DNA of 36,990 bases from Nitrospira sp. (GTDB lineage Bacteria > Nitrospirota > Nitrospiria > Nitrospirales > Nitrospiraceae): NCBI GenBank assembly GCA_019636815.1, contig JAHBWT010000041.1:1-36990 (forward strand), read 5' to 3'. The notes below the pieces were generated by a model. That model had not been told where the DNA came from. It worked only from the letters and a program-made list of their open reading frames with translations, and did no database searches. Shown piece after piece: positions 5,959-19,213 of the stretch. The stretch's first letter is position 1. Each line of letters opens with the position of its first letter. The translations under genes were made by a program, and so were the position numbers.

Positions 5959-6360
5959 ATGGAGAAGAACGGTTTGCTTCGCCGATGGCCTACGGTCGTC
6001 ATGCTCATGTGATGTCCGTTCGTCGATGTGCTGCAGGCCGAGGCTGCCGTTGCGTCTAGAGTGGAGCAGATCTTGGTGGCTGAGAAGGCCATTCGGGATG
6101 AGGAAGATCAATTGCGGACGCTCCTCAATCCAGATGAAGCTGAGCTACGGCAAACAGTCCGCCTCACGCCCCTCGACGCGCCGATCACCTATATGGAGAT
6201 CCTCAGCCTCGAAGAAGCCATCGAGACCGCGATCACACAGCGCCCAGAAATTACTCAGGCAAAAAAGAGCGTCGTCTCGGCAAGACTGTGTGTGGATGGC
6301 GATGCGGCGCGTCGAGCCGGTGGGAGGAAGGGGTTGACAGAGACGAAGTCCGCCATGTAG
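5959..6360 (+). pseudogene. Remnant of TolC-family outer-membrane channel gene
   Basis: A start right after the permease stop gives a short signal-like peptide (MEKNGLLRRWPTVVMLM), then TGA at 6010. The same frame continues without a start as DVLQAEAAVASR...LLNPDE...PITYMEILSLEEAIETAITQRPEITQAKKSVVSARL. That is the coiled-coil repeat region of TolC-type outer-membrane factors. After about 6285 the similarity ends, and the reading runs into unrelated residues to a stop at 6360. The signal region is therefore fused to a central fragment, with large internal and 3' parts missing. It was originally the third gene of the pump operon. Intact members are about 450-500 residues, so this cannot make a channel. 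Confidence 0.75.
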
Positions 6361-6361
6361 T

Positions 6362-6380
6362 GATAGCAATTATCAAAATC
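6362..6380 (+). promoter_or_regulatory. Putative Fur box
   Basis: GATAGCAATTATCAAAATC matches 13 of 19 positions of the classical Fur consensus GATAATGATAATCATTATC, counted by eye. It lies directly upstream of the structured leader and the tonB-sigma-fecR genes, where iron repression would be expected. No Fur gene is in the window, and the box preference of this organism's Fur is unknown. Confidence 0.45.
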
Positions 6381-6391
6381 ACTAATCGAGA

Positions 6392-6485
6392 CCTCTGCAT
6401 GCAGAGGGACTCGGCAAGAGGCCAGAGGACTTTAAGTCCAGAGCCCCTGATCGTCCAGGAGACGGTCAGGGGCTTTTTGTTGTGG
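6392..6485 (+). promoter_or_regulatory. Structured leader with terminator, conserved element copy A
   Basis: A perfect 16-nt palindrome (6392-6407) is followed by GGCCAG (6420-6425), a small GGACT/AGTCC hairpin (6427-6439) and AGAGCCC (6440-6446). Then comes a terminator-like hairpin whose arms AGCCCCTGA (6442-6450) and TCAGGGGCT (6466-6474) are perfectly complementary, a T-run and GTTGTGG. The tonB start lies 24 nt after the T-run, so this is a leader terminator and not an end-of-gene signal. The block GGCCAG-N13/14-AGAGCCC-hairpin-T-run-GTTGTG recurs at 10961 and 17536 before other iron genes. This suggests transcription attenuation; the signal sensed is unknown. Confidence 0.6.
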
Positions 6486-6501
6486 TGGAAGTCGAGTCGA
6501 A

Positions 6502-7359
6502 ATGGGGTTTGGTCCCAGCATAGCACAAAAGACCGCCAGACTCGGATGGGGCGTTTCCGGTTTCCTGCACGGCATCATTCTGGCTGCGGCAGCCGTTTCC
6601 GTTCAGGTTATGACACCGCAGGCGGTGCCACAACGAGAGCTGTTTCGCTGGGAGGTTTCCCTATCGGCGGCGCCCAGAAGCGAAGCCGTGGTGTCGAATG
6701 GGCTGCAGCGCGCAACTGACGCCTCTGCCTCAGAGGCTCGTTTGCCGGAGGCTCTAGATGTTCCATCTTTGGAGCGGACGGCAGCGTCTCCATTGCGCCT
6801 TGATGAAGAACGACAGTATCCCACTGCATCTGCCGAACATTCAGCGCCTCCGCTCTTCCCATCGTCACGGAGTAGGTCGGTGCAAAATCACTCTCACCAA
6901 CGCACGGCTGTTATGGACGTCGCAAGGCCAGCAGAATCGCTCGTGCCTCCTCCCGAAATCGAAAGTCGGCGAGAATCCAATCACGTCGAAGTCGAAACTC
7001 GGCCGGAACATGTGACGGTTCTTCAACGGCCACAAGCTGTCACCCACGCTCTCGTCAACAGGACCATTCTTCCGGACTACGGATGGCTGAGGGAGACGCT
7101 GCGATCAAGATTGGAAGAAGTCAAACGCTATCCGGCGGGGGCGCGGGCCGTTCACGCGCAAGGCCTCGTGGTCGTCCAAGTTCGTGTGGACGGCGACGGT
7201 TGCCTGAGAGATCCGGAGGTTAAAGAAAGCTCAGGCTCTGCTCTGCTCGATCGCGCAGCCATGGCTGCGGTTCAGGCGGCGTCGCCTCTGGCACTCCGTC
7301 ACCGACTGGAAGGGGCACCGCTGGTGATGCTGGTACCTCTGAGCTATCGCTTGGAATGA
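6502..7359 (+). CDS. TonB-like energy transducer (I)
   Basis: A 285-residue protein with one N-terminal membrane helix (about residues 17-38), a long low-complexity periplasmic linker and a C-terminal TonB domain. The domain runs from LEEVKRYP through VVVQVRVDGDG and ESSGSALLDRAAMAAV to the closing PLSYRLE. TonB proteins pass proton-motive energy from ExbB/ExbD to outer-membrane receptors. ExbB/ExbD are not encoded here. The linker is less proline-rich than in classical TonB. The ECF sigma gene follows after 6 nt, so the two are cotranscribed. Upstream lie a Fur-like box and a leader terminator, which suggests double iron control. A purine stretch (GTGGAAG, about 15 nt upstream) is a modest ribosome binding site. 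Confidence 0.85.
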   Translation: MGFGPSIAQKTARLGWGVSGFLHGIILAAAAVSVQVMTPQAVPQRELFRWEVSLSAAPRSEAVVSNGLQRATDASASEARLPEALDVPSLERTAASPLRLDEERQYPTASAEHSAPPLFPSSRSRSVQNHSHQRTAVMDVARPAESLVPPPEIESRRESNHVEVETRPEHVTVLQRPQAVTHALVNRTILPDYGWLRETLRSRLEEVKRYPAGARAVHAQGLVVVQVRVDGDGCLRDPEVKESSGSALLDRAAMAAVQAASPLALRHRLEGAPLVMLVPLSYRLE

Positions 7360-7365
7360 CGTCGC

Positions 7366-7875
7366 ATGTCTGATCAACGTCTCGCGCTCGAAACCTCCTT
7401 GTTTCAGGGGTACTACCAAGAGATGCTCCGATTCTTGACGGCCAAGCTGGGGTGTCGTGAACAGGCGGCCGATGTGGTGCAAGACACCTTTCTGCGTGTG
7501 CGAGGCGTGAAAGATCTGGAGGCGATCAGCCAGCCGCGAGCGTTTTTGTACAAGACTGCCCTCAACCTTACGGTCGACCTGTTTCGTCGGCGACAGATCC
7601 GATCTGAAAGGACGATTCAACCGGCGGAGATGAACCGGGTGCCGTCCGGGATGCCTCGGCAGGATTGCGAAGTCGAAGCCAAGGAACGTGTGCGGCTGCT
7701 CTATGCCGCGATCGACGACCTGCCGTCGAAATGTCGGCAGGTTTTTTTGCTTCACAAGTTTAAGGGGCTGTCCCATGCTGACATCGCTCAGAGGTTGGGG
7801 ATTTCAAAAAACATGGTGGAGAAACATGTCATGAAGGCGATGGATCGCTGCCGTCGACAAGTTGAAGAGGCCTGA
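7366..7875 (+). CDS. ECF sigma factor, FecI-like (I)
   Basis: A 169-residue sigma-70 family protein with only regions 2 and 4, as in ECF factors. Region 2 includes the core-binding stretch AADVVQDTFLRV (about 34-45). Region 4 includes LPSKCRQVFLLHKFKGLSHADIAQRLGISKNMVEKHV (about 118-155), a helix-turn-helix for the -35 element. FecI-type sigmas are activated through an outer-membrane receptor, TonB and a FecR regulator when a ferri-siderophore binds, and all of those partners are encoded nearby. It lies between tonB I and fecR I, with a short hairpin before fecR. Probable targets are the motif copies at 1686, 9032, 14000 and 19337, though the second sigma in the window could also use them. 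Confidence 0.92.
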   Translation: MSDQRLALETSLFQGYYQEMLRFLTAKLGCREQAADVVQDTFLRVRGVKDLEAISQPRAFLYKTALNLTVDLFRRRQIRSERTIQPAEMNRVPSGMPRQDCEVEAKERVRLLYAAIDDLPSKCRQVFLLHKFKGLSHADIAQRLGISKNMVEKHVMKAMDRCRRQVEEA

Positions 7876-7876
7876 G

Positions 7877-7897
7877 GATGAGCGTCTTCCGCTCATC
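7877..7897 (+). repeat. Perfect hairpin between sigma I and fecR I
   Basis: GATGAGCG, a TCTTC loop and CGCTCATC form a perfect 8-bp stem immediately after the sigma stop codon. No T-run follows, so it is not a classical terminator. It may protect the mRNA 3' end or set the ratio of sigma factor to anti-sigma factor. Confidence 0.55.
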
Positions 7898-7956
7898 AAG
7901 CGCGTCAACGAGATTCGGTGTCAGGGTTCTCACCGTTTCTGCGTCTTAAGTACCAG

Positions 7957-9012
7957 ATGGATATCCCGAAGGCCCTGAAAGTTAAGGAGACAGAGGAGAG
8001 AGGCGCAGAGCAATCCGGATCGGACGGCCGCTCGTCGGCGGCCGAGGAAGCGCTTCATTGGTTCGTGCGGCTGAAGGCCGGCTATATCACGGATGGAGAC
8101 CGAGCCCAATTTCAGGTTTGGTGTGACGGGCAGGTGTTCCGTCGCGATGAGTTCGACAAGCTGACCGAAATCTGGGATGACCTCGACGACATTGGGCCGT
8201 TGCTCGAACGAGAGGTGGATCGGGCGGATGCCAAATCGCAATCGACGGGTCGGCGGTTCTCGGTTCGACCTCAAGGACGCAGAAGCAGCTACGGCTTCTC
8301 GGCAGCGCTGGTGGCTTCACTTCTGGCGGTCGTCGCGGGAGGGTGGTGGTTTGTCGACCGAGCCGAAATCGCCGACTATAGAACGGCCAGAGGCGAGCAG
8401 CGAACGGTCGTACTGCCCGATGGAACCCGAATGGTCTTGAATACGGAAACGGCGGTCACGACCGAAATGTCCATGTTCAAGCGAACGGTCGTGCTGCACC
8501 AAGGCGAAGCCTTGTTCATCGTCACCCATGACGATAGGAAACCCTTCAGAGTCGAAGCAGGCAGCAGAACGGTTCGGGATATTGGCACTCAGTTTACGGT
8601 AAGGCGGGACCACACGCAGGTGACGGTCTCGGTGGTCGAGGGAGTGGTCGAGGTGCAGAGCTCGAACGAGGCAGCATCGGCGAAACAACAGACGACGTTA
8701 ACTGCCGGGGAGCGGGCTTCATACAGCGAGCAGGGAGGACTTTCTTCCATAACGACGGTCGATGTCGCCGCCGTGATGGCCTGGACGACCGGCGACATCG
8801 TCTTCGACCAACGGCCGTTGGCCGAGGTCGTTCAAGAATTCGGACGGTATCATCGGGGAGAGATCCGCGTCCTCGATCCACGATTGAGCGATCGCAAAAT
8901 CAGCGGTCGCTTCAGTCTGCGCGATCGCGAGGCCTTTCTACGGGCCGTGAAAGCGGCCACTCAGGCGAAATCGACCCATGTCGGCGAGAACGTCATCATC
9001 CTGAACGAATAA
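7957..9012 (+). CDS. FecR-family sigma regulator / anti-sigma factor (I)
   Basis: The N-terminal cytoplasmic domain has the FecR_N signature (EEALHWFVRLKAG, then FQVWCD and FDKLTEIWDDLDD). One membrane helix follows (near SAALVASLLAVVAGGWWF). The periplasmic FecR domain includes ARGEQRTVVLPDGTRMVLN, FRVEAGSRTVRDIGTQFTV and VVEGVVEV, and a C-terminal STN-like portion ends in NVIILNE. FecR proteins hold the ECF sigma inactive and relay the receptor signal across the inner membrane. The ATG at 7957 gives 351 residues. A GTG at 7918 would add 13; neither has a clear ribosome binding site, so the start is uncertain. It lies downstream of sigma I and upstream of an ECF-like promoter that serves the second tonB. 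Confidence 0.9.
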   Translation: MDIPKALKVKETEERGAEQSGSDGRSSAAEEALHWFVRLKAGYITDGDRAQFQVWCDGQVFRRDEFDKLTEIWDDLDDIGPLLEREVDRADAKSQSTGRRFSVRPQGRRSSYGFSAALVASLLAVVAGGWWFVDRAEIADYRTARGEQRTVVLPDGTRMVLNTETAVTTEMSMFKRTVVLHQGEALFIVTHDDRKPFRVEAGSRTVRDIGTQFTVRRDHTQVTVSVVEGVVEVQSSNEAASAKQQTTLTAGERASYSEQGGLSSITTVDVAAVMAWTTGDIVFDQRPLAEVVQEFGRYHRGEIRVLDPRLSDRKISGRFSLRDREAFLRAVKAATQAKSTHVGENVIILNE

Positions 9013-9031
9013 AGATTTCTTTCAACGCGCA

Positions 9032-9060
9032 GGTGAGGTTTTTGAAGTCACATTCGTCCT
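9032..9060 (+). promoter_or_regulatory. Putative ECF sigma promoter, copy 2 (upstream of tonB II)
   Basis: GGTGAGGTTT at 9032-9041 and CATTCGTC at 9051-9058 keep the same 19-nt register as the other three copies. The motif lies just after fecR I and about 100 nt before tonB II. It would let the sigma factor encoded just upstream boost its own energy-transduction gene. Confidence 0.6.
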
Positions 9061-9161
9061 CTATATATGACGGGGGAGTGGTCTGTCTCCCGCCTGCTCG
9101 AAACGATTCAGTCTGTGGATAAGGCACCTTCTGTCACGGGTCTGGAGAAAGAAATTCGGCG

Positions 9162-9989
9162 ATGACCATCGGTGAGTTCAACCGGCTGATCCGCATCGAG
9201 AGACGGCATCACGCGCATAGTTGGGCGGCGTCCCTGCTGTATCACGTGATCGGCCTCTCCGGCGCCCTGTTCTTCATGTCCGAGATCGATAAACCGGTCT
9301 TTCTTGACACCTTTCAATGGGAAGTGTCTATGGTAGAGGCGGCGACAACGCAGCAGCCGCCTCCTCTTTCCCCTCCTCCGACACCGGTTCCTCCTCAACC
9401 TCGTCATGTCAAGCGAACAGCCGATCCTCGTCCGCCGGTCGAAACGCTTCAGACGGTACAGCACGCTGATCATGAGATCGTGACGCCGCAGATCCAGACT
9501 CCGGTGGAGACGGCGCAGTCGGCAGATACCCCGCCGGTTGTTGCCCAGGCGGTCACCACCACGCACACCACAGTTGTGGAGCGTGCGGTCGAACAGTCCA
9601 CGGTAGTGCAGGAAGAAGCGTTTGATGTCGGCTCCGACCTGCCGACCGTCGAGCACCGGACCGTCCTGCATCAGGAGGTGCGGTACCGCCGGACCCAAGC
9701 GGACTACGGCTGGCTGCGCGACTTGCTTTGGAAACGAATCGAAGAGTTGAAGCGCTATCCGACATTGGCAAGAGCCAATCACTGGGAGGGCAAAGTCGTC
9801 GTGCAGGCGGTCATCAAAGCGGACGGCACGGTGGGAGCTCTCAGCGTCGCCGAAAGCTCGGGCCATGCGTTGCTGGACGAAGAGGCGTTGGTGGTCATGA
9901 AGAAGGCATCGCCCTTGAGGTTGAAACATCAGTTGGAGACGTCGCAGATTACTATTTTGATTCCAATCAGTTATCGCTTGGAAGGGTAA
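9162..9989 (+). CDS. TonB energy transducer (II)
   Basis: A 275-residue TonB protein with an N-terminal helix (about residues 22-40, SWAASLLYHVIGLSGALFFM) and a classical proline-rich linker (PPPLSPPPTPVPPQP, near 66-80). The C-terminal TonB domain has EELKRYPTLAR, GKVVVQAVIKADG, SGHALLDEEAL and a closing IPISYRLEG. It spans the periplasm and energises outer-membrane receptors. The start is well supported by GGAGAAAG upstream. Its C-terminal domain resembles TonB I closely, so the two probably arose by duplication. Its linker differs, and it sits behind an ECF-like promoter and not a Fur/attenuator leader. The pair may serve different receptors or different induction states. Confidence 0.9.
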   Translation: MTIGEFNRLIRIERRHHAHSWAASLLYHVIGLSGALFFMSEIDKPVFLDTFQWEVSMVEAATTQQPPPLSPPPTPVPPQPRHVKRTADPRPPVETLQTVQHADHEIVTPQIQTPVETAQSADTPPVVAQAVTTTHTTVVERAVEQSTVVQEEAFDVGSDLPTVEHRTVLHQEVRYRRTQADYGWLRDLLWKRIEELKRYPTLARANHWEGKVVVQAVIKADGTVGALSVAESSGHALLDEEALVVMKKASPLRLKHQLETSQITILIPISYRLEG

Positions 9990-10042
9990 CAAGCAGCTGA
10001 GGAATACCCAGCCGCGCGAGACACGCACAAAGGAGAATGACG

Positions 10043-10501
10043 ATGAATCGCCAGACGATCGCACGTTTTAGAGTCCGACCGGCTGTGTTCGTATATGCGC
10101 TAGGCATGCTCTCCCTACTCGGTAGTCCAGCCTGGGCGGAAAGCAAGAGCCCAAAAGTATTCCACGCCGTGGCTGTTGATGCCAAGAGCGTGGAAACGGA
10201 CGTCAAGAACGTGATCTTCTATTACGAAGAAAAGATCAGCGAAACCGCCTTCGTGCCGCACGAAATGCGCGAGTTGCCCGTGAAGCGCGGCACCGCCACT
10301 GTCAAGATCAAGTTTGACGGCATCAAACACATTGATCTCAAGTCATCGGGGAGCGGCACTCCGCCAAACGTCACAGTGACGCTCAACGACGGCAAGACCG
10401 GAGATTTTGTCTTGGCCATCCCGGGCAGTTTCAAAGGGCAATCCGAGTTCGGAGAAGTCGAATTGCCTGCGGCGGAGCTGAAAAAGCTCACGTTCAAATA
10501 G
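10043..10501 (+). CDS. Small secreted protein of unknown function
   Basis: A 152-residue protein with a clear signal peptide (hydrophobic stretch VFVYALGMLSLLGS, cleavage likely after AWA, about residue 32). The mature part is about 120 residues and rich in beta-type alternation (TATVKIKFDGIKHIDLKS, NVTVTLNDGKTGDFVLAIPG), with no cysteines that I can see. I do not recognise the family. The start at 10043 is preferred over the ATG at 10037 because AAAGGAG (10029-10035) is properly spaced only for the former. It follows tonB II by about 50 nt in the same direction and is probably cotranscribed, which suggests a periplasmic or surface role in iron handling; this is inference from position only. 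Confidence 0.75.
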   Translation: MNRQTIARFRVRPAVFVYALGMLSLLGSPAWAESKSPKVFHAVAVDAKSVETDVKNVIFYYEEKISETAFVPHEMRELPVKRGTATVKIKFDGIKHIDLKSSGSGTPPNVTVTLNDGKTGDFVLAIPGSFKGQSEFGEVELPAAELKKLTFK

Positions 10502-10588
10502 CCGTCGCCATACTTCCGCGTCCGACCTGCGCGATAGATTCCGCCTCGACGAGGTCCGAGTCGACCCGGCACCACGAGGGAGAAGCGC

Positions 10589-10747
10589 ATGTCCCGTTGT
10601 TCTTCCGAAGATGTTGTCCTGCTCGTTCGATCCTACGTCAGGTTTTCGCACGCTCGTGCGTTACATCTCCCGTGGATGAGATGCGGTCTCTCCGTATCCG
10701 GCCGAGCGGGTCTCCCGCGCTGTGCCGGGCATGAGGTGAGACGATGA
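10589..10747 (+). CDS. Possible 52-residue leader ORF overlapping the Com-like gene
   Basis: A short frame with a good ribosome binding site (GAGGGAGAAG just upstream) ends in a TGA that overlaps the ATG of the next gene, a typical translational-coupling arrangement. The peptide is basic, with five cysteines (Cys4, Cys32, and others near the end), and resembles nothing I know. It could be a real small protein, a coupling leader or chance. Upstream bases 10502-10588 contain nothing recognisable. Confidence 0.3.
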   Translation: MSRCSSEDVVLLVRSYVRFSHARALHLPWMRCGLSVSGRAGLPRCAGHEVRR

Positions 10748-10929
10748 GCGAGTCGCGCGCACCGTCGGCTTCGAGCTCGGACGTCCGGTGCCATTGCGGG
10801 AAACTGATGGCCCGCTGGCAAGGCGAGAGCCTGGTCATCAAGTGCTCGCGCTGCGGACGGTTCGTTCTGATTCACTCATCGGCCATTACCGGCATACCGC
10901 CTCGCGGAATGACGCCGGGTCCGCGGTAA
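10744..10929 (+). CDS. Com-like zinc-ribbon protein
   Basis: A 61-residue protein whose core reads RCHCGKLMARWQ...LVIKCSRCGRFV. This is the layout of the Com family: two cysteine knuckles around a GKL(L/M) turn and an IKC(P/S)RC second knuckle. Phage Mu Com (about the same length) is a zinc-binding RNA-binding protein that activates mom translation by altering mRNA structure. The first knuckle here is CxC, one residue shorter than the usual CxxC. GAGGTGAG is a strong ribosome binding site. The next element downstream, 31 nt after the stop, is a conserved hairpin leader in front of a TonB-dependent receptor, so an action on that RNA is conceivable. No methylase gene such as mom is nearby. Confidence 0.65.
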   Translation: MSESRAPSASSSDVRCHCGKLMARWQGESLVIKCSRCGRFVLIHSSAITGIPPRGMTPGPR

Positions 10930-10960
10930 CGTCCTTCCACACACAACGATTCTCTAACAA

Positions 10961-11020
10961 GGCCAGCGGATCGTGAATCCAGAGCCCACGGCTGCCACGC
11001 AGTCGGCGGGCTCTTGTTGT
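10961..11020 (+). promoter_or_regulatory. Structured leader with terminator, conserved element copy B
   Basis: GGCCAG (10961-10966), a small GGAT/ATCC hairpin (10968-10980) and AGAGCCC (10981-10987) are followed by an inner GGCTG/CAGTC stem. GGGCTCT (11008-11014) pairs perfectly with AGAGCCC, and TGTTGTG comes next. Sequence, order and spacing match copies A (6420) and C (17536), although the T-run is weaker here. It lies between the Com-like gene and the receptor, about 47-62 nt before the receptor start. Confidence 0.6.
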
Positions 11021-11075
11021 GTTTGGCCCAGAACATCGTCATGAACCGTGATCGGCACAGATGAGAAAGGGACAT

Positions 11076-13835
11076 ATGAGTCGAATCAAGGTCACGCGAG
11101 GAAGGAAGCAGAAGAGAGATAAAGCGGCGATTGCAAGGGTCGCTACGGCATGGAGACAACGGGAAGAGGTGGGCAGGAACTCCTCGACAGGTTGTGTGCT
11201 CTGGGGACTGCTCGTGGGGATGTCCTCGCTCGCCCTCGGCCTCTATCATCCGGCCATGGCGCAGGATGAACCGGGCCGGGACCGTCAGCCGGCGCCACGC
11301 GAGCTGGGGCGAGGTCTCGGACCGTGGAATACATTTCCTCCCGTCAAGCCGGAGTTAAATCCTCTCGATCGTCCTCTCCTGCCGGAGGAGCGCCGGTACC
11401 ATACTCGTGGCGCCGTTGGCCTCATGGTGCAGCAGGAGATGGATGGTCCACCCAAACAACACTTCGAGATTCCTGCCGGCGCGTTGGGCCCGGCCTTGGC
11501 GGTCTTTTCACGCCAGACCGATTTGCAGTTGCTGTATCTCTCCGAGCTCATTGAGGGGCGCACGACACAGGGCGTGCAAGGCGACTATACGCCGGAGGAC
11601 GGACTCAAGACCCTCTTGTCCGGCACCGGATTGCAGTATCAATTTTCTGATTCAAAGACCGTCGTTCTCCAACCGGCCGGCCCATCAGGAGCCGCGAAGC
11701 TGGACCAATCATCGGCGAATCTTGCCGACCAACCGAAGCCGATCAAAGTACCGGAAGTCGTCGTCAAGGACGCCCGAGAACGGCCAACCTGGACCACTCC
11801 AGTGGACGGCTACAAGGTGGACCACGTCTCAACCGTCACGCGCAGCACCATGTCTACCGATGAAGCGCCTACATCAATTGGTGTCGTTACGCGTGATCTG
11901 ATTCGCGACACCTTCGCGCGCACGCAGAACGACGCCTTAGAACACGTGAGCGGTGTGTCTCGAAGTAACACGCTACTAGGGCGAGGAGAGGGAATCGCGA
12001 TCAGAGGATTCGTCGTGAATACTTTCAATGGATCCTTAAACGGTCTGAAAGCCAATGGACTGCCGACTGACGGCGTGTTCGCGCCGGATTGGGGCATCGT
12101 CGAACGTTATGAAATCGTGAAGGGGCCAGCCTCGATCGTCGGCGGTGCGGCCAATCCGGGCGGGATTATTAATCGCATCACGAAGACGCCGCAGCGCTCG
12201 AATTTCACGACGGTAGAAACTAATATCGGTTCGTATGGCTTGTACAGGGGCCTGATCGATGCCAACGGTGTCATGCCGAAGCACGAGCACATTCGCGGTC
12301 GATTGGTCTTCGCCGTCGAAGAGGGCGGCAACTTTGTCGACAACACACCGGTCCGGCAGTACACCGTCGCTCCATCAGTGGAGTTTGACCTCTTCAGAGG
12401 CGCCGGCAAGTTGTTGCTGGTTGGGACGTATCAACATTTCGACGGCGCCAGCTATCCCGGTTGGCCGCTCACGACCGATGGAAACATGCTGAACGTCCCG
12501 CGCACGAGAAACTTTGGCGGCGGAGCGCCCAACGGCGCGCGTACGCAATACACGGGATATAACGGAGAAGTTCATTACAATCATCAATTCATTCATGACA
12601 TCAAACTCTCTATTAAAGGCAAATATTCCAAGTCCGATCTTTCCGACAAGAACATTTACGCATATACCTTCGGTGGTCTTCCGCCAAGTGGAGATACATT
12701 GGTCAGCTCGAGCTTACGGCAGAATCGATTTGATACCTATGCGGGCGAGTTGGTTCTTAGCAAAGAATTCGATCTCTTGGGAAAGAAACACGAAATTCTG
12801 GCCGGCGCCGACCATCGCGACATGACGAACAACTTCCTTCTAGGCTATGCTTATTTGCCGGTTGGACAGGCACCGATTCTCGATAGCGTGTTCAATCCTA
12901 GGAATGTCTTTCGGGCGCCTTCTGATTCGTTTTTGGTCACCCAAGCCAGTGGGCCCTTTCGAGTGGATTTGAAACAAACCGGCGCTTTTGGTCAGGCAAT
13001 CTTCCGCCCATTCGAGCGGCTGACGTTGGTCTTTGCAGGACGGCACGACAGAGCCGAATCGCAACGTCTGCTCAAGGAGAGCGGTGAACTGTTCGACCAG
13101 ACCAAGTCAGGCTGGACGGGCCGTGCTGGCGCCACGGTAAAGATGACATCCTGGATGAATATCTATGCTGGCCTTCAGCAGTCGTTTCAACCACAACCAT
13201 TCTCTCTTACGCGTGATAACCAAATGTTGGAACCGGAAACCGGCATTAATTACGAGGTTGGTGCCAAGTTGAACCTGCTCGACGAGCGACTCCGTCTCAG
13301 CACGGCCTTGTTTCGCACCTATCGTCGCGATGTGGCGACGGTCGATCCAACGGATATTCGATTTACGGTCGCTATCGGGGAACAGCGTCATCAAGGGGTG
13401 GAGTTTGATGTGAACGGCCAGCCGATTCCCGGCCTCAACTTGTCAGCGAACATCACCTATCTTGATGCCAAAATTACCGAAGATAATGATCTGACTCGTA
13501 TCGGGAGCCGTCCGGTCCGAGTGCCACGCTCATACTTCGGGCAGGTGTTCGCGACCTATCAACTTCAATCTGGGCCGTTACAGGGATTCGGGTTCGGTGG
13601 CGGAGTCTATTTTCAAGATGGATTCGAAGTCGGCCTGCCAAACCAATTCAGAACGAATGGATATCAGCGAGTCGATGCAATGCTGTTCTATCGTGGCAAC
13701 AAGCGATATGACGTGACCATCAACATCCGGAACTTACTCAACGAGAAATATATCGAGTTTCCGAACCTTATTCATGGTCAGAACATTTTTGGCGCGCCGA
13801 TCACCGCTGTCGGCAGCGTGCGCGTGTTCTTCTAG
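11076..13835 (+). CDS. TonB-dependent siderophore receptor with STN signalling domain (I)
   Basis: An outer-membrane beta-barrel receptor of about 919 residues. A long basic pre-signal is followed by a hydrophobic signal core (VLWGLLVGMSSLALGLYHPAMA). The STN domain (FEIPAGALGPALAVFSRQTDLQLLYLS ... YTPEDGLKTLLSGTGLQY, about 130-200) contacts FecR in such transducers. The TonB-box region IKVPEVVVKD, the plug (SIGVVTRDLIRD, IAIRGFVVN, IEIVKGPASIVGG-like) and the barrel follow. The C-terminus VGSVRVFF ends in the aromatic residue typical of outer-membrane barrels. ATG 11076 is preferred for its AGAAAGGGA ribosome binding site; ATG 11061 adds five residues. Upstream is leader element B and no ECF motif. 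It probably binds a ferri-siderophore and signals to a FecR/FecI pair; the ligand is unknown. Confidence 0.92.
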   Translation: MSRIKVTRGRKQKRDKAAIARVATAWRQREEVGRNSSTGCVLWGLLVGMSSLALGLYHPAMAQDEPGRDRQPAPRELGRGLGPWNTFPPVKPELNPLDRPLLPEERRYHTRGAVGLMVQQEMDGPPKQHFEIPAGALGPALAVFSRQTDLQLLYLSELIEGRTTQGVQGDYTPEDGLKTLLSGTGLQYQFSDSKTVVLQPAGPSGAAKLDQSSANLADQPKPIKVPEVVVKDARERPTWTTPVDGYKVDHVSTVTRSTMSTDEAPTSIGVVTRDLIRDTFARTQNDALEHVSGVSRSNTLLGRGEGIAIRGFVVNTFNGSLNGLKANGLPTDGVFAPDWGIVERYEIVKGPASIVGGAANPGGIINRITKTPQRSNFTTVETNIGSYGLYRGLIDANGVMPKHEHIRGRLVFAVEEGGNFVDNTPVRQYTVAPSVEFDLFRGAGKLLLVGTYQHFDGASYPGWPLTTDGNMLNVPRTRNFGGGAPNGARTQYTGYNGEVHYNHQFIHDIKLSIKGKYSKSDLSDKNIYAYTFGGLPPSGDTLVSSSLRQNRFDTYAGELVLSKEFDLLGKKHEILAGADHRDMTNNFLLGYAYLPVGQAPILDSVFNPRNVFRAPSDSFLVTQASGPFRVDLKQTGAFGQAIFRPFERLTLVFAGRHDRAESQRLLKESGELFDQTKSGWTGRAGATVKMTSWMNIYAGLQQSFQPQPFSLTRDNQMLEPETGINYEVGAKLNLLDERLRLSTALFRTYRRDVATVDPTDIRFTVAIGEQRHQGVEFDVNGQPIPGLNLSANITYLDAKITEDNDLTRIGSRPVRVPRSYFGQVFATYQLQSGPLQGFGFGGGVYFQDGFEVGLPNQFRTNGYQRVDAMLFYRGNKRYDVTINIRNLLNEKYIEFPNLIHGQNIFGAPITAVGSVRVFF

Positions 13836-13999
13836 CTCAGAAATAAGTGCGTACGGAGAAAAGGCCTCATTAGACAAGACAACACGTGAGCATAGCGGAC
13901 CTGCTCACCTATCCAGGCAGTCCAACGCTGAGCCGCACAGCGGAACTGCGTTTCTAAAGGCTTGCAATTTCGAGATATTAATCGGCTCACTCGATTGCC

Positions 14000-14028
14000 A
14001 GTGCGGTTTCTGCTTCCTCATTCGTCTA
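14000..14028 (+). promoter_or_regulatory. Putative ECF sigma promoter, copy 3 (upstream of DUF3649-PepSY operon)
   Basis: AGTGCGGTTT at 14000-14009 and CATTCGTCTA at 14019-14028 keep the 19-nt register, with one substitution in the GTGAGG core. The first operon gene starts 40 nt downstream. The preceding gap (13836-13999) holds one imperfectly explained inverted repeat, GTGAGCA/TGCTCAC (13886-13908), without a T-run. Confidence 0.55.
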
Positions 14029-14068
14029 CTTCTTTAAGGCTCCTTTCGGTGGAGTCTGCAATGTAGCG

Positions 14069-14368
14069 ATGGGCAAGCGAACTAGATCACCGCTCTCTTG
14101 GAAACACGTCGCCTCCCGCGTCGGAGCCGCCGCGCTGGGCGGCTACGCCTTCACCTATGCGTTTACCGCCTGCCTGACGCTGCTGCTACCGCTTCCCAGG
14201 ACCGAGGCGCTCTTGACTGCCGCCATGCTTTCGTTTCTCCTATACGCTGGAGCCATCATCTGGGCCTTTACGGCCGCGACACCATGGCGTGCCTGGCTTG
14301 GTCTGTTGGCCCCCACGGCGGTGTTCACGGCCATTGCAACACCATTGGCTCTCGCCATGGGTCAATGA
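14069..14368 (+). CDS. DUF3649-type small membrane protein
   Basis: A 99-residue protein with three hydrophobic helices (about 18-40, 48-68 and 75-96) and a basic N-terminus. Size, topology and position before a PepSY_TM protein match the DUF3649 family, found in iron-uptake loci with TonB-dependent receptors. Its biochemical role is not established. The PepSY gene follows after 36 nt. No strong ribosome binding site is visible; GGTGGAG lies rather far upstream. Family assignment rests on context and helix pattern. Confidence 0.7.
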   Translation: MGKRTRSPLSWKHVASRVGAAALGGYAFTYAFTACLTLLLPLPRTEALLTAAMLSFLLYAGAIIWAFTAATPWRAWLGLLAPTAVFTAIATPLALAMGQ

Positions 14369-14404
14369 AGTCAACATGACCGCGCGTAGGCGCCCGGACA
14401 TACC

Positions 14405-15943
14405 ATGAAAGAGAGCTTTACTCAGTCGATGGATTGGCTCCATACGTGGGGCGGCCTCCTATTCGGCTGGGTTCTGTTCACAATCTTCCTGACCGGCACG
14501 CTCACCGTCTTCGACAAAGAAATTACCTTCTGGATGCAGCCGGAGCTGCATCATGTGGACTCGGCTCACGTCAATATCAAGGCCGTTGAACAGCAGTTGA
14601 CTCGGCTTGGATCCAATTCGGACCGATGGTGGATCGAATTGCCATCTGTTCGGACTCCGGCGGTTACGATTTTCTGGCAGAGGGACGACCAGGAGAACTT
14701 CGAAGAGCGGTGGCTTGATCCCACGACCGGAGAGATTCTTCAAGTTCGTGACACCCGGGGCGGTGATTTCTTTTACCGCTTTCATTATTCCTTGCATCTC
14801 AATCGAACCGGGGTGTGGATCGTCGGTGCCTCGGCGATGGTCATGCTGGTCGCGCTTGTCACCGGCCTGGTCATCCACCATCGAATCTTCAAAGACTTTT
14901 TTTCCTTTCGTCCCCGCGCAACATTCCATCGGGCCTGGTTGGATGCGCACAATGTGACCAGTGTGCTGGTGCTTCCTTTTCATTTTGTGATCACCTTCAC
15001 AGGTCTGGTCATTTTCTGGACCATCTACATGCCGGCGGGGATTCAATTCTTGTATGGAGGAAACAGCGACAAGGTTTTTCACGAGCTTGAAGGACATCTT
15101 GAGCGGGAACCGGCGCGGAGTCCTGCCGCATTAGCCTCACTCAGTGACATGGAACGGCAAGCCCGAGCCCATTGGAACGGTGGATCCACGGAGTCGATTG
15201 AGGTCCAACATCCGGGCGACCGGCATGCCATCGTGAATGTGTCGCGCCGCGCCGCCGACCGCCTGGCGCTGATGTCCGACCGTGTCACGTTCGACGGGGC
15301 GACCGGCGAGCTGTTGCAGGTGTGGAAGGGGGAGTTGCCGGTCTTCACGACCTATTCCGTCCTGATTGGCCTGCATTACATATGGTTCGATCATGATGCC
15401 ATCCGGTGGCTCTACTTCGGCATGAGTCTGGCGGCCACGGTCATGATCGCCACGGGGCTGCTGCTGTGGATCATCAAGCGGCGAGACCGGCATACCGAGC
15501 GTCCGCTCGGCTTTCGAATCGTCGAATCTCTCAACGTGGCCGTCGTCGCCGGACTGCTGGTAGCGATTGCCGTCTATTTTGTGGCCAATCGCCTGCTTCC
15601 GGTCGCGCTGCCTGACCGTGCGGATTGGGAGATGGGAGCCTTTTTTCTCGTATGGAGTCTGTGCACGACACACAGTGTCGTCAGAGCCCACTCCCAACAG
15701 GCGTGGAGAGAGCAGTTGAGTGTGGCCGCGCTCCTATTTGCCCTGATCCCACTCTGCAACATGGCGACAATCGACAGCCACCTCCTCGTCACGCTACCGG
15801 CTGGAAATTGGCGACTGGCGTCGGTCGATCTTCTGTGCCTTCTTGCGGGGCTTCTGCTGGGGTGGGCGGCGTGGCTGGTGAATAGACCGGTGGAACAGGT
15901 TCATCCATCAAGCGCTTCGCTCACAGGTGCCGAACAGGCGTGA
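14405..15943 (+). CDS. PepSY-associated TM helix protein (iron-regulated membrane protein)
   Basis: A 512-residue inner-membrane protein. It begins SMDWLHTWGGLLFGWVLF, the hallmark first helix of PepSY_TM proteins, with a histidine near the membrane edge. A periplasmic loop contains PepSY-like sequence (about 45-130), followed by helices near 138-160 and 185-215, a second loop, and further helices near 325-350, 365-390 and 400-505. Conserved histidines (HYSLHLNRTGVW, HNVTSVLVLPFHFVITFTG) resemble those of the FhuF/FpvG-type reductive iron-release proteins. Known members sit beside siderophore receptors and are thought to release iron in the periplasm. It is the middle gene of a three-gene operon behind an ECF-like promoter. 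Reductase activity is inferred. Confidence 0.88.
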   Translation: MKESFTQSMDWLHTWGGLLFGWVLFTIFLTGTLTVFDKEITFWMQPELHHVDSAHVNIKAVEQQLTRLGSNSDRWWIELPSVRTPAVTIFWQRDDQENFEERWLDPTTGEILQVRDTRGGDFFYRFHYSLHLNRTGVWIVGASAMVMLVALVTGLVIHHRIFKDFFSFRPRATFHRAWLDAHNVTSVLVLPFHFVITFTGLVIFWTIYMPAGIQFLYGGNSDKVFHELEGHLEREPARSPAALASLSDMERQARAHWNGGSTESIEVQHPGDRHAIVNVSRRAADRLALMSDRVTFDGATGELLQVWKGELPVFTTYSVLIGLHYIWFDHDAIRWLYFGMSLAATVMIATGLLLWIIKRRDRHTERPLGFRIVESLNVAVVAGLLVAIAVYFVANRLLPVALPDRADWEMGAFFLVWSLCTTHSVVRAHSQQAWREQLSVAALLFALIPLCNMATIDSHLLVTLPAGNWRLASVDLLCLLAGLLLGWAAWLVNRPVEQVHPSSASLTGAEQA

Positions 15944-15944
15944 C

Positions 15945-16268
15945 ATGAGGTGGATGACTCTGATCCTCTGCTACAACGGATGGCTCGGCTTATGTCTGGC
16001 TATGCCCAAATACTGCAGGCAAGTCCTTCAACAGGATGCCGCTCCGCCGAGTCAGCATATCTTGAGGATAATCGGTTGGGCCTGCCTGATGGGATCGTTG
16101 GGCGTTTCCGTGGCGGTCGAAGGGTGGTCGTTCGGACCAGTGGCATGGGTCGGCCATCTGGCGGTCATGGGCCTCGCGCTGGTGTGTCTCTTGCCGTATG
16201 TACCCCGTATCGTCCTCGCCCTGGGTGCGCTTGGAATGGCATCCGTCATCGCCCTGTGGTTCACGTGA
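15945..16268 (+). CDS. DUF3325-type small membrane protein
   Basis: A 107-residue membrane protein starting one base after the PepSY stop, with helices near 3-18, 42-60, 66-84 and 88-105. The N-terminal pattern (LILCYNGWLGLCLAMPKYCRQV) and place as third gene fit DUF3325, a family seen in the DUF3649-PepSY-DUF3325 siderophore-uptake cassette. Function is unknown. An overlapping GTG start at 15927 would add six residues, but ATG 15945 fits operon spacing better. Confidence 0.7.
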   Translation: MRWMTLILCYNGWLGLCLAMPKYCRQVLQQDAAPPSQHILRIIGWACLMGSLGVSVAVEGWSFGPVAWVGHLAVMGLALVCLLPYVPRIVLALGALGMASVIALWFT

Positions 16269-16611
16269 CAACCTGACGCAGTCAAAATTCTCGATACCAA
16301 TTGCCTTGACTTTGCATTCTCGCTTAGGCATACGGACAATTATGATCAGTTCCAGTTTAACAACCTGTTCAGCCGATCAATCATGACGAGTGGTGTCTCG
16401 TGGATATTATCATTCTGATTCTTATCCTCTTTCTAGGTTGGTTTGGGTGGGCGACGCTTCGCGACTCATCGAGCTAGCCCGATGTCCGAGCGCGATCGAT
16501 TGACACCCTCAGAATTGTAACTCGATGACGGACTGCTGCGTACGACATTGATGGCCCGATACGCGGTGTTTAAGAGTACTCATCGCCTGGCTCGTCACAC
16601 AAAGGGATCGT
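16269..16611. other. Intergenic gap before the lipoprotein gene
   Basis: This 343-base stretch is relatively AT-rich at 16280-16440, contrasting with its neighbours. No terminator, RNA gene or copy of the two conserved regulatory motifs is visible. The only coding-like signal is the 25-codon hydrophobic frame at 16400-16477, listed separately. Confidence 0.4.
16400..16477 (+). CDS. Possible 25-residue single-helix membrane peptide
   Basis: A GTG-started frame encodes VDIIILILILFLGWFGWATL followed by a short polar tail RDSSS. That is a ready-made transmembrane helix with an aromatic girdle. It has no convincing ribosome binding site. Its position between iron genes gives no function. It could be a real small membrane protein or an accident of AT-rich sequence. 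Confidence 0.25.
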   Translation: MDIIILILILFLGWFGWATLRDSSS

Positions 16612-17235
16612 ATGAAATGGCTGGTATTCACGGGATCCATGATATATCTGTGCTCTTCACTCTCCGGCTGTGCGTCCTCTTCAATCAACGGAAATAACCC
16701 GGTTGAAGTGACCAGTCACATTGAGATCACGCGCGATGAATTTACAATCGTCATCAAACAGGATGAAGTGACAAAGGTCACCTCATACACAGGTCCCAAC
16801 TGTGCCAAAAATCCTGTCGACCATATCGTGCTGATTCGCGCGTGGCAAACACGGGATGAACCTGTCACGTACCAGATCTACGTGTCTGACAGATACACCC
16901 ATGAGCAGCTGCACGGCGGGATAGGCGGGAAACTGTACGACACGGTGCACGATATCGATGGGAATGTGTTACCCACGGAGGTGCTTTCGCGCAGCGTCAG
17001 TTGGTGCGGAAAGAACGAGTGCCAGTATGTAGAGGCTGTGGGGGTCGCCATTACCCGGCCGTATCTGGAGGATCGGATCGCTCGCGGACTCACACTGAAG
17101 ATCGGAGGAACAAGAGGAAGCGCAACGGCCAATGTCCCAGCTGCTTACGTGCAGGCGTTTCTCAAAAGGGTGCCGGAGCAAGGGATACGACGGCAGAGAG
17201 TGGATGCAGACCCTATACAAAGGACAAAAAATTGA
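16612..17235 (+). CDS. Lipoprotein of unknown function
   Basis: A 207-residue protein with a type II signal peptide: MKWLVFTGSMIYLCSSLSGC, with lipobox LSGC and the lipidated cysteine at residue 20. The mature part is mostly beta-like and polar, with three further cysteines at about positions 63, 124 and 129 (the last two in WCGKNECQ), so disulfides are possible. AAAGGGA is a good ribosome binding site. I do not recognise the family. It precedes sigma factor II but is separated from it by 377 bases, so an operon is unlikely. The base composition is lower in GC than its neighbours, hinting at separate acquisition. Confidence 0.8.
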   Translation: MKWLVFTGSMIYLCSSLSGCASSSINGNNPVEVTSHIEITRDEFTIVIKQDEVTKVTSYTGPNCAKNPVDHIVLIRAWQTRDEPVTYQIYVSDRYTHEQLHGGIGGKLYDTVHDIDGNVLPTEVLSRSVSWCGKNECQYVEAVGVAITRPYLEDRIARGLTLKIGGTRGSATANVPAAYVQAFLKRVPEQGIRRQRVDADPIQRTKN

Positions 17236-17535
17236 AGCGAAGATGTCGCTCCGGAAACCCAAATAAAAAAGCACAGTACTTTTTCAAGACAAGAACGGAG
17301 CCTCATCGAACAGGGTACAGTTTACATCTTGTTCTTGACAATGTTCCATTACCGGCACTCTCCAGCCTCTCGGTGTCAGTGGTATCGTTGTCGGCGGGAA
17401 AGACGTGGTCGCCTACCGACACCATAATTGCAGCCTAGAATGGTTGCTGCGGCGATTACATGGGGGTAGACAGAGACAACCCGGGTTTGTAATTATGAGC
17501 GCTCAAATCGGTTTTCATCATCATAGTTTCTGAGC
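17236..17535. other. Intergenic gap before sigma II leader
   Basis: No gene is supported here. A weak AAAAAG/CTTTTT hairpin lies at about 17267-17285 and could end the lipoprotein transcript. On the reverse strand, 17504-17522 reads GATGATGAAAACCGATTTG, matching 12 of 19 positions of the Fur consensus by eye; this is too weak to call but sits where a Fur site would be expected. Confidence 0.3.
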
Positions 17536-17600
17536 GGCCAGCACTGTACAGGTCAGAGCCCACGCTTCTAAGAAGTTGCGTGGGTTTTTTGTTGTGGGGA
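17536..17600 (+). promoter_or_regulatory. Structured leader with terminator, conserved element copy C
   Basis: GGCCAG (17536-17541), 13 nt, and AGAGCCC (17555-17561) are followed by a terminator hairpin with perfect arms CCCACGC (17559-17565) and GCGTGGG (17578-17584), a six-T run and GTTGTGG. The sigma II start lies 23 nt after the T-run. The order matches copies A and B; here the small upstream hairpin is poorly formed. Confidence 0.6.
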
Positions 17601-17612
17601 CCGCATGTACGC

Positions 17613-18128
17613 ATGAACCCGACGTGGCAAGATATCGAGCAGCTGTACCATGAGCATAGGCATGAGCTGTTGCGGTCGCTCATCCGCATCGTGCGATGTG
17701 AGCAGGCTGCAGCGGATTTGGTGCAAGAGACCTACTTGCGACTCGTCAAGCGCGATCAGTCCTGCGCTGTCACCCACCCCCGCGCATTGCTGTTTCGAAC
17801 CGCCACGAACCTGGCGATTGATTATCTTCGCCGAGGGAAATTCGAACAGGCGGGTGGTCATGTGTCGGACTTCGCTTCCGAGACGCCCTCGGGTGCGCCA
17901 TCCGCCGAACGGGTCTTGTTCGACAAGCAACGCGTGCGGATTTTTTCGAACGCCATCGATAGTCTGACTCCTCGCTGTCGAGAGGCCTTTCTATTGCACC
18001 GCGTCCACGGCTGCTCCTACCGAGAAATCGCCGACCGCCTCTCGGTAACGGAAAGCGCGGTCGAAAAACTCATCATGCGGGCCTTGCTCCATTGCCGCAA
18101 CAAACTTCAGCAGCATGATGCGGAATGA
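17613..18128 (+). CDS. ECF sigma factor, FecI-like (II)
   Basis: A 171-residue two-domain ECF sigma. Region 2 contains AAADLVQETYLRLV (about 32-45). Region 4 contains LTPRCREAFLLHRVHGCSYREIADRLSVTESAVEKLIMRAL (about 118-158). It is of the same iron-starvation type as sigma I but clearly divergent, so not a recent duplicate. The ATG at 17613 overlaps the stop of a three-codon frame (ATGTACGCATGA), which might couple translation; GGGGA lies about 12 nt upstream. fecR II follows after 56 nt and a receptor after that, giving a complete sigma-FecR-receptor set. Leader element C immediately precedes it, suggesting attenuated expression. Confidence 0.92.
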   Translation: MNPTWQDIEQLYHEHRHELLRSLIRIVRCEQAAADLVQETYLRLVKRDQSCAVTHPRALLFRTATNLAIDYLRRGKFEQAGGHVSDFASETPSGAPSAERVLFDKQRVRIFSNAIDSLTPRCREAFLLHRVHGCSYREIADRLSVTESAVEKLIMRALLHCRNKLQQHDAE

Positions 18129-18184: not shown

Positions 18185-19213
18185 ATGCCGTTGCCCGGTC
18201 GGACAGTGGTCATGCCCGACTCAAATCAACAGCCCTTCCTCCCTGCGATGTCTGCCCCTGCCGCTTCACACTCTGAGGAAGCGATGGCTTGGTTCGCACG
18301 CCTCCGGTCTGAGCGCTGTTCTCCTGACGAACAGCAAGCTTTTGAATCGTGGCGAAACCAGACCCCTTCTCATGCCCGAGCCTATGAGGAAGTCTTGGCG
18401 CTCTGGGATGATCCGGATTTACGAGAAGCGGCAAACGAGGCCGCTCTTGCTTTGCCGCGGTCGGAACCAGGTGCGGCCGTCCGTTTCCGGCCGCAGATTC
18501 AGGTGCGGCAGTTCATGATTGCGGCCATGATCGCAGGACTGGTTGTTCTGACTGGCCTACAATTGGACCTTCCGGTCCGATTGCTATCGGATCACAGCAC
18601 GTCGACGGGAGAACAGCGCGTCGTGACATTATCCGATCACTCAACCGTTACGCTGAATGCACAAAGCGCGATCGACGAGGCATTTGACGACTCGACTCGC
18701 CGCGTGCGCTTGCTCAAAGGAGAAGCGTTTTTCCAGGTGGCCCATAATGAGCTCAAGCCATTTGTGGTAGACAGCGGTGCGATTACTGCGCGCGCGGTGG
18801 GGACGGCGTTTGTCGTCCGGCAAGAATCAAACGGCATCCGAGTGACGGTTACCGAGGGTGTGGTGGAACTGGCACCCCTCCAGCCGGCTTGGCCATCGTT
18901 ACGGTTGACGGTGGGTCAACAAGTGTCTGTCACGACGGAGAGAGTGAGCCCTGTTCAAGGAGTAGATCCCAGTCAAGCCACCGCATGGCTGAGGGGTCGC
19001 CTGGTCGTCGACAATGTCCGGTTTGGAGATGTCATCGACGAACTCCGCAGATATTATCCAGGCACGATCCTGATCTGGAATAGTGCGATGAATGAAATTC
19101 GTGTCAGCGGCAATTACAATATCGCCGATCCCGCCGCGATGCTGATCGCACTCAACGAAACCCTTCCGGTCAATATGGCGAAAATGTCCGATCGTATCGT
19201 CATCTTCTTCTAG
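18185..19213 (+). CDS. FecR-family sigma regulator / anti-sigma factor (II)
   Basis: A 342-residue FecR protein. The cytoplasmic FecR_N region (SEEAMAWFARLRSERCSPDEQQAFESW) is followed by a membrane helix (about residues 110-128, MIAAMIAGLVVLTGLQL). The periplasmic FecR domain includes STGEQRVVTLSDHSTVTLN, VRLLKGEAFFQV, ITARAVGTAFVV and VTEGVVELA. The C-terminal STN-like region ends in DRIVIFF. It should bind sigma II in the cytoplasm and the STN domain of receptor II in the periplasm. The longest start (18185) is given; ATG 18212 is possible. The gene is followed by an ECF-like promoter and then receptor II. Confidence 0.9.
   Translation: MPLPGRTVVMPDSNQQPFLPAMSAPAASHSEEAMAWFARLRSERCSPDEQQAFESWRNQTPSHARAYEEVLALWDDPDLREAANEAALALPRSEPGAAVRFRPQIQVRQFMIAAMIAGLVVLTGLQLDLPVRLLSDHSTSTGEQRVVTLSDHSTVTLNAQSAIDEAFDDSTRRVRLLKGEAFFQVAHNELKPFVVDSGAITARAVGTAFVVRQESNGIRVTVTEGVVELAPLQPAWPSLRLTVGQQVSVTTERVSPVQGVDPSQATAWLRGRLVVDNVRFGDVIDELRRYYPGTILIWNSAMNEIRVSGNYNIADPAAMLIALNETLPVNMAKMSDRIVIFF

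Follow-up and report, generated by a model that had tools for sequence, protein, structure and literature searches.

Short RNA elements before iron and redox genes of Nitrospira and their probable connection with Com-like zinc-ribbon proteins

We have analyzed a stretch of 36,990 nt from Nitrospira sp. (assembly GCA_019636815.1, contig JAHBWT010000041.1), which we call the window. It contains three copies of a short element, found before a tonB gene, a TonB-dependent receptor gene and a fecI sigma factor gene. The best explanation is that these copies are members of a family of cis-acting RNA elements of Nitrospiraceae, about 60 nt long. The gene preceding the second copy codes for a small protein which is likely a homologue of Com, a regulator of phage Mu. 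The evidence points to a trans-acting RNA-binding protein of the Com family rather than to a switch made of RNA only. We consider it fairly probable that this protein binds two boxes in the element and blocks an inhibitory stem. This would lead to antitermination in elements like those of the window (type 1) and to activation of translation in a second type found in relatives (type 2).

The first-pass annotation had described three copies with the order GGCCAG, 13 or 14 nt, AGAGCCC, a hairpin, a T-rich tail and GTTGTG. This description is accurate: the order is found on the + strand at 6420–6484, 10961–11021 and 17536–17596, and the full strict pattern has exactly these three matches in the 4.0 Mb genome, none in the reversed control. 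The first two blocks, GGCCAG...AGAGCCC, match three times in the window, where 0.02 matches are expected. The terminator arms are different and fully compensating, also as described, and the folding z-scores of the three cores, relative to shuffled sequences, are -5.9, -2.1 and -3.8 in copies 1, 2 and 3. A covariance model adds relaxed copies in other parts of this genome, at C66:19203 (74 bits), at C16:6220 (39 bits) and, doubtfully, at C111:47544 (28 bits).

All three copies are on the + strand. Copy 1 (6419..6484, type 1, before tonB I) has the box CCAGAG twice, at 6422–6427 and 6438–6443, with a small hairpin at 6427–6439, a terminator at 6440–6476 and a T-rich tail. Copy 2 (10960..11021) lies between com and the TonB-dependent receptor I gene. 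Its boxes are CCAGCG (10963–10968) and CCAGAG (10979–10984), its small hairpin is found at 10968–10980 and its terminator at 10981–11014. In copy 3 (17535..17596, before fecI II) the first box is CCAGCA (17538–17543), the second CAGAGCCC (17554–17561), and the terminator extends from 17555 to 17588.

Further copies are abundant in related genomes. The covariance model, built from 25 copies, has matches in 51 of 59 congeneric genomes, with a maximum of seven per genome. In a sample of the phylum the element is present in 39 of 148 genomes, nearly all of the same family or order. The strict pattern does not match in any of 97 relatives, because the exact AGAGCCC...TTGTTGTG sequence is local: the family only emerged through a protein-guided search. 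The conserved blocks proposed initially must be revised to this extent, since GGCCA and GAGCCC are kept in relatives, but neither AGAGCCC in its exact form nor the tail TTGTTGTG is. Other conserved features in relatives are a small covarying hairpin and a terminator which ends in GGGCT or GGGT and is followed by a T-rich tail. At the fecI II orthologue loci of many congeners the same element is found shortly before fecI, with arms which differ but compensate.

The general layout, about 60 nt long, is (GG)CCAG[A/C]G, a 3–5 bp hairpin of free sequence, CC[A/G]GAGCCC, a terminator, a T-rich tract and a Shine-Dalgarno (SD) site. The two boxes, 14–19 nt apart, resemble each other and form a direct repeat. 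The GAGCCC of the second one doubles as the 5' arm of the intrinsic terminator, where it is paired with GGGCU[C]. No variation is seen in CCA of the first box, in GAGCCC of the second or in GGG of the 3' arm. When 76 divergent copies are aligned by sequence only, 92.1% of the cells are standard pairs, a value which falls below 50% when the structures are slid by 1–3 columns. Both stems covary strongly, with 219 double-sided changes versus 63 in shuffles, so the selection on RNA structure suggested at first is borne out. The lack of a named RNA family also holds: no Rfam 15 family is matched by the element, at either gathering or relaxed thresholds. Neither this RNA nor a part played by Com in the control of iron genes is reported in the open literature we searched.

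Open reading frames (ORFs) similar to Com recur at element loci, where they often precede the element by 22–45 nt. Among the genomes of the phylum sample, 39 contain com, and 36 of these also have the element (Fisher test, 2e-27; 7e-6 outside the family). In the genus, both are present in 47 of the 59 genomes, only the element in four, only com in one and neither in seven (p 7e-6). All these p-values are inflated, since the genomes share ancestry, which is a point against our interpretation. In three of the four genomes with only the element (G013, G019 and G026) it lies near a contig end, and a com gene placed 3.3 kb upstream would, judging from the coordinates, fall off the contig. The genome with only com (G033) carries a type-2 box instead. 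In family f13, far from the family of the window, the element is again found directly after com (G121).

We have also scanned genome contigs with a Com profile. The best 80 loci, nearly all with the title Nitrospira or Nitrospirota and one labelled Nitrosospira, were fetched by the protein alone and overlap partially with the genomes searched earlier. The element is found within 4 kb on the com strand in 62 of these 80 loci, and in 15 of the 62 its distance from the com stop codon does not exceed 120 nt. At one locus (L295 in G170, 1769–2274) there are type-1 elements on both sides of com, an arrangement which would fit autoregulation.

The com-like gene of the window (10744..10929, + strand) codes for a 61 amino acid Cys4 zinc ribbon, and its stop codon lies 31 nt before copy 2. 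As a single sequence, the protein matches PF10122 (Zn_ribbon_Com) with E=1.6e-4, and a profile-profile comparison with phage and plasmid Com gives 96.5% and E=7.7e-10. All four zinc-ligand cysteines are present: RCxCG...KCxRC is invariant in 21 relatives, with a CxC in the first pair where CxxC is expected. These similarities make it likely that the protein, which we propose to be an RNA-binding regulator, is a homologue of phage Mu Com, an RNA-binding activator of translation. A phage search gave a single weak match (E=0.9), to a gene annotated as Com. A plasmid search gave no similar DNA, and the protein matches to the window protein are at chance level. A search of the window's own genome for the PF10122 family gave no match, but neither did the controls, so that it carries no information.

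In plasmids from Pseudomonas and Comamonas and in a Pseudomonas phage (L299, L300, L301, L282), com is followed by a candidate repeat of CC(N)1-3GAG, a short distance upstream of where the next gene starts. A GH68 (levansucrase-type) gene starts 11 nt after com in P. amygdali. Other small CxxC proteins also recur beside elements (at L131, L132, L138–L145 and other loci). They are of several kinds, for example CRRCGG...RCVNCGW and CRRCHEPICHRNPQLWCIKC, and one protein tested per kind gave no confident Pfam match. We have considered them as the regulator and rejected them, because of this diversity and because com is the more constant companion of the element.

The box is also found without a terminator. 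Most com loci which lack a type-1 element carry, when read by eye, the motif RGACCAGAGACCnnnnGAGTCCCGAGTC. This type-2 motif was discovered after the type-1 analysis, which did not predict it. It lies 35–88 nt past the com stop codon and 31–38 nt before the ATG of a porin gene. A regular expression for it matches 43 of the best 80 com loci, two of them with a variant, and 36 of the 59 congeneric genomes, with one or two matches per genome and none in reversed controls. In all of 51 folds, the GAGUCCCGAG part is paired with CUCGGGGCUC, which lies early in the porin ORF; the folds come from closely related sequences and are thus not 51 independent events, and only 0.9% of synonymous controls pair equally well. 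Such pairing means that the box exists apart from the terminator, next to com, in a stem which encloses the start codon, the same layout as in mom inhibition. At these loci in relatives com lies directly upstream, and the box stands beside a stem which hides the start, as in the Com/mom system. A strict type-2 match is absent from the window's own genome, and no type-2 box was found in viral contigs.

The published properties of Com suggest how these elements may work. Systematic evolution of ligands by exponential enrichment (SELEX) yielded the motif GAG(N)2CC, for the most part in bipartite form (PMC6483171). Binding required CC(N)2-3GAG in a loop, with protection of GA, and Com, an activator in phage Mu, is held to melt the inhibitory stem of the mom mRNA (PMC6483171). 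In Nitrospira, a chromosomal zinc-ribbon protein of this family, encoded at the same loci, would bind both boxes on the nascent RNA. In type 1, it would hold GAG at the foot of the 5' arm, the terminator would stay open and RNA polymerase would read through into the gene. In type 2, binding at the box would make the ribosome site of the following ORF accessible, which is what Com does for mom. For sequence-specific RNA binding by the window protein there is circumstantial evidence, namely the linkage and the likeness of the boxes to the SELEX motif. We have computed the structure, conservation and position of the elements, their linkage to com and the re-use of the box, and from these we infer Com binding, an activating direction and the signal.

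Several results, besides the shared ancestry of the genomes, weigh against this mechanism. The match of the window protein to PF10122 has 21.5 bits, just under the curated cut-off of 22.9, and only 7 of the 21 relatives match this family at E<=0.01. One genome (G018), which is 99% complete, has the element and no com that we could detect. The spacing in type 1 is CC-N-GAG, which lacks one base compared with the published CC(N)2-3GAG, and the small hairpin has the boxes on either side of it instead of in its loop. The published GAG(N)2CC is found exactly only in type 2 (GAGUCCC). Finally, the first box varies within the window: CCAGAG, CCAGCG and CCAGCA.

The same element and the same partner might also act with the opposite sign: Com would stabilize the unit formed by hairpin and terminator and repress the downstream genes, for example as a negative feedback behind com. 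The linkage evidence applies equally, and autoregulation would be consistent with elements which directly adjoin com on one side or the other. We nevertheless find repression unlikely, for the second box is within the 5' arm of the terminator, and a protein which keeps it single-stranded should oppose termination. Type 2 also has the same box in a stem around a start codon, and Mu Com is an activator (PMC6483171).

The elements lie directly before the SD sites of genes. A start codon with an SD site is found within 60 nt downstream in 75 of 115 non-redundant copies, versus 7 of 115 on the opposite strand and 9% of random positions. The genes behind the element include fecI, tonB, receptors, exbB-like, bfd-like and small zinc-ribbon genes, many of them with a Fur-like box upstream. 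In its most widespread context the element precedes a gene coding for an HD-GYP protein, behind a locus with com, porin and FMN_bind genes. In Nitrospira defluvii, for example, the order is com, porin (PF07396), a small protein, an FMN_bind protein, a 172 amino acid membrane protein, the element and HD-GYP, with ApbE on the other strand. This conserved locus (Candidatus Nitrospira defluvii, L237, 2616–8135; com/porin O/P/FMN_bind/HD-GYP) looks like a flavin-based extracytoplasmic redox system. The proposal of an attenuator or riboregulator of iron signalling is thus only partly sustained: the layout is that of an attenuator and many of the genes are iron genes, but the element is not confined to them. 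At another locus (L088, 3827–3989) a tandem pair of type-1 elements, 36 nt apart, is found upstream of a tonB-like gene.

These data also bear on whether the elements are ordinary terminators of upstream genes, or unregulated terminators between operons, which we regard as quite improbable. In the HD-GYP context the element does lie about 30 nt past the stop codon of the preceding co-directional gene, and in 19 of 63 copies tested a gene on the same strand ends within 60 nt. On the other hand, the upstream gene is on the opposite strand in 13 of the 63 copies and on the same strand, more than 150 nt away, in 24, so that the element must be more than the tail of the gene before it. GGCCA is specific to the element: it precedes 87 of 94 element terminators versus 4 of 53 other terminators at the same loci, although the first of these counts is partly by construction, because the model itself contains GGCCA. 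The fixed distance to a downstream start with an SD site and the linkage to com are also at odds with ordinary terminators.

A metabolite or metal riboswitch, in which GGCCAG and its hairpin form a very small aptamer followed by the terminator, seems slightly less probable still. Conserved letters and covarying stems before genes with one theme, and a terminator directly before an SD site, are what such a switch would have. Nevertheless, the sensor would only have about 25 nt, the box is re-used without a terminator next to com, and the element is tightly linked to a gene for an RNA-binding protein. In addition, no alternative fold competes with the terminator. We have found no competing antiterminator helix: the duplex energy of upstream sequence and 5' arm has a mean z of +0.34 relative to shuffles, with z<-2 in none of 108 cases. 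Without an upstream competitor for the 5' arm the RNA alone has no visible switch, and a trans-acting factor is needed. Finally, each iron gene might be preceded by a small RNA under Fur control whose 3' end is the element, which is very improbable in our opinion. Many iron-type copies do have Fur-like boxes and promoter-like hexamers a few tens of nt before them, from which a transcript of about 100 nt, ending in the terminator, would arise. Nevertheless, the leader between Fur-like box and GGCCAG seems unconserved by eye, many copies lie between close co-directional genes and the distance to the SD site is fixed.

The genes of the window form Fec-type iron systems, in the order tonB, fecI, fecR, tonB, receptor, PepSY protein, fecI, fecR, receptor; the promoter described below and the genes directly behind the three copies are on the + strand. 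A putative tonB I promoter (6334..6375) has TTGACA at 6334–6339 and TAGTGA at 6358–6363, with an 18 nt spacer, and overlaps a presumed Fur-like box, TGATAGCAATTATCA (6361–6375, score 13 of 19). If this promoter is correctly assigned by its sequence, a GC-rich hairpin with a U-tract lies between promoter and start codon on the same strand, as expected for an attenuator. At copy 1, initiation would then depend on the Fur-like promoter, while elongation would be gated by Com. The tonB I gene (6502..7359) is followed by fecI I (7366–7875), fecR (7918–9012) and tonB II (9162–9989). The siderophore receptor I gene behind copy 2 (11076..13835) is in an ORF which opens at 11061; the ATG at 11076 is the probable start, as its SD site is better. 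Behind copy 3, fecI II (17613..18128) belongs to an ORF from 17580. The ATG at 17613 is its most probable start; the GTG at 17580, in the same frame, sits within the terminator. It is followed by fecR (18185–19213) and receptor II (19412–21958). Two other ORFs of the iron cluster (10037–10501 and 16612–17235) do not have any Pfam match.

As in the Com/mom system, the gene just before a target codes for a homologous Cys4 zinc ribbon, and a box with CC and GAG stands beside an inhibitory stem, which in type 2 surrounds the next gene's SD site and start codon. The Nitrospira elements differ in being chromosomal, with one or few com genes per genome and several boxes. In addition, the commonest inhibitory stem is a transcription terminator, the boxes flank a hairpin, the targets are iron and redox genes, and there are no phage genes around com in the window. 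BglG/LicT proteins, with their ribonucleic antiterminator, and ANTAR proteins cause antitermination through a short leader element which overlaps the 5' arm of an intrinsic terminator. The protein proposed here would act on a leader of this kind, but it is a zinc ribbon, of an unrelated family, the boxes are short direct repeats and no alternative antiterminator hairpin was found. Iron and metal riboswitches such as czcD/NiCo have a 5' leader with a terminator before metal-related genes, as our element does, yet the latter has no Rfam match, no competing fold and a likely protein partner. Genes of the kind found behind the window copies, many of them with Fur-like boxes, are under Fur and FecI-FecR control; the element would supplement the known Fec scheme with a further layer, which acts once transcription has been initiated.

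Studies of Com have dealt with a phage protein which turns on one gene. We have not found, in the open literature searched, a member of its family which has a chromosomal regulon of several genes and a terminator as its platform. That Com-family zinc ribbons are cellular RNA-binding regulators, with a chromosomal regulon of iron and flavin-redox genes, one box and two outputs, and with a Cys4 site which might be a metal sensor, has in our judgment about an even chance of being right. If true, a protein family which until now has been known chiefly from phages would be in charge of a bacterial regulon. Com relatives would control it in nitrite-oxidizing and comammox bacteria, important in the nitrogen cycle and hard to manipulate genetically. 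Elongation would be controlled on top of Fur and FecI by a compact protein-RNA antitermination system, made up of 61 amino acids and about 60 nt. One box with two expression platforms would also provide a natural comparison of a single RNA-binding event acting on transcription or on translation.

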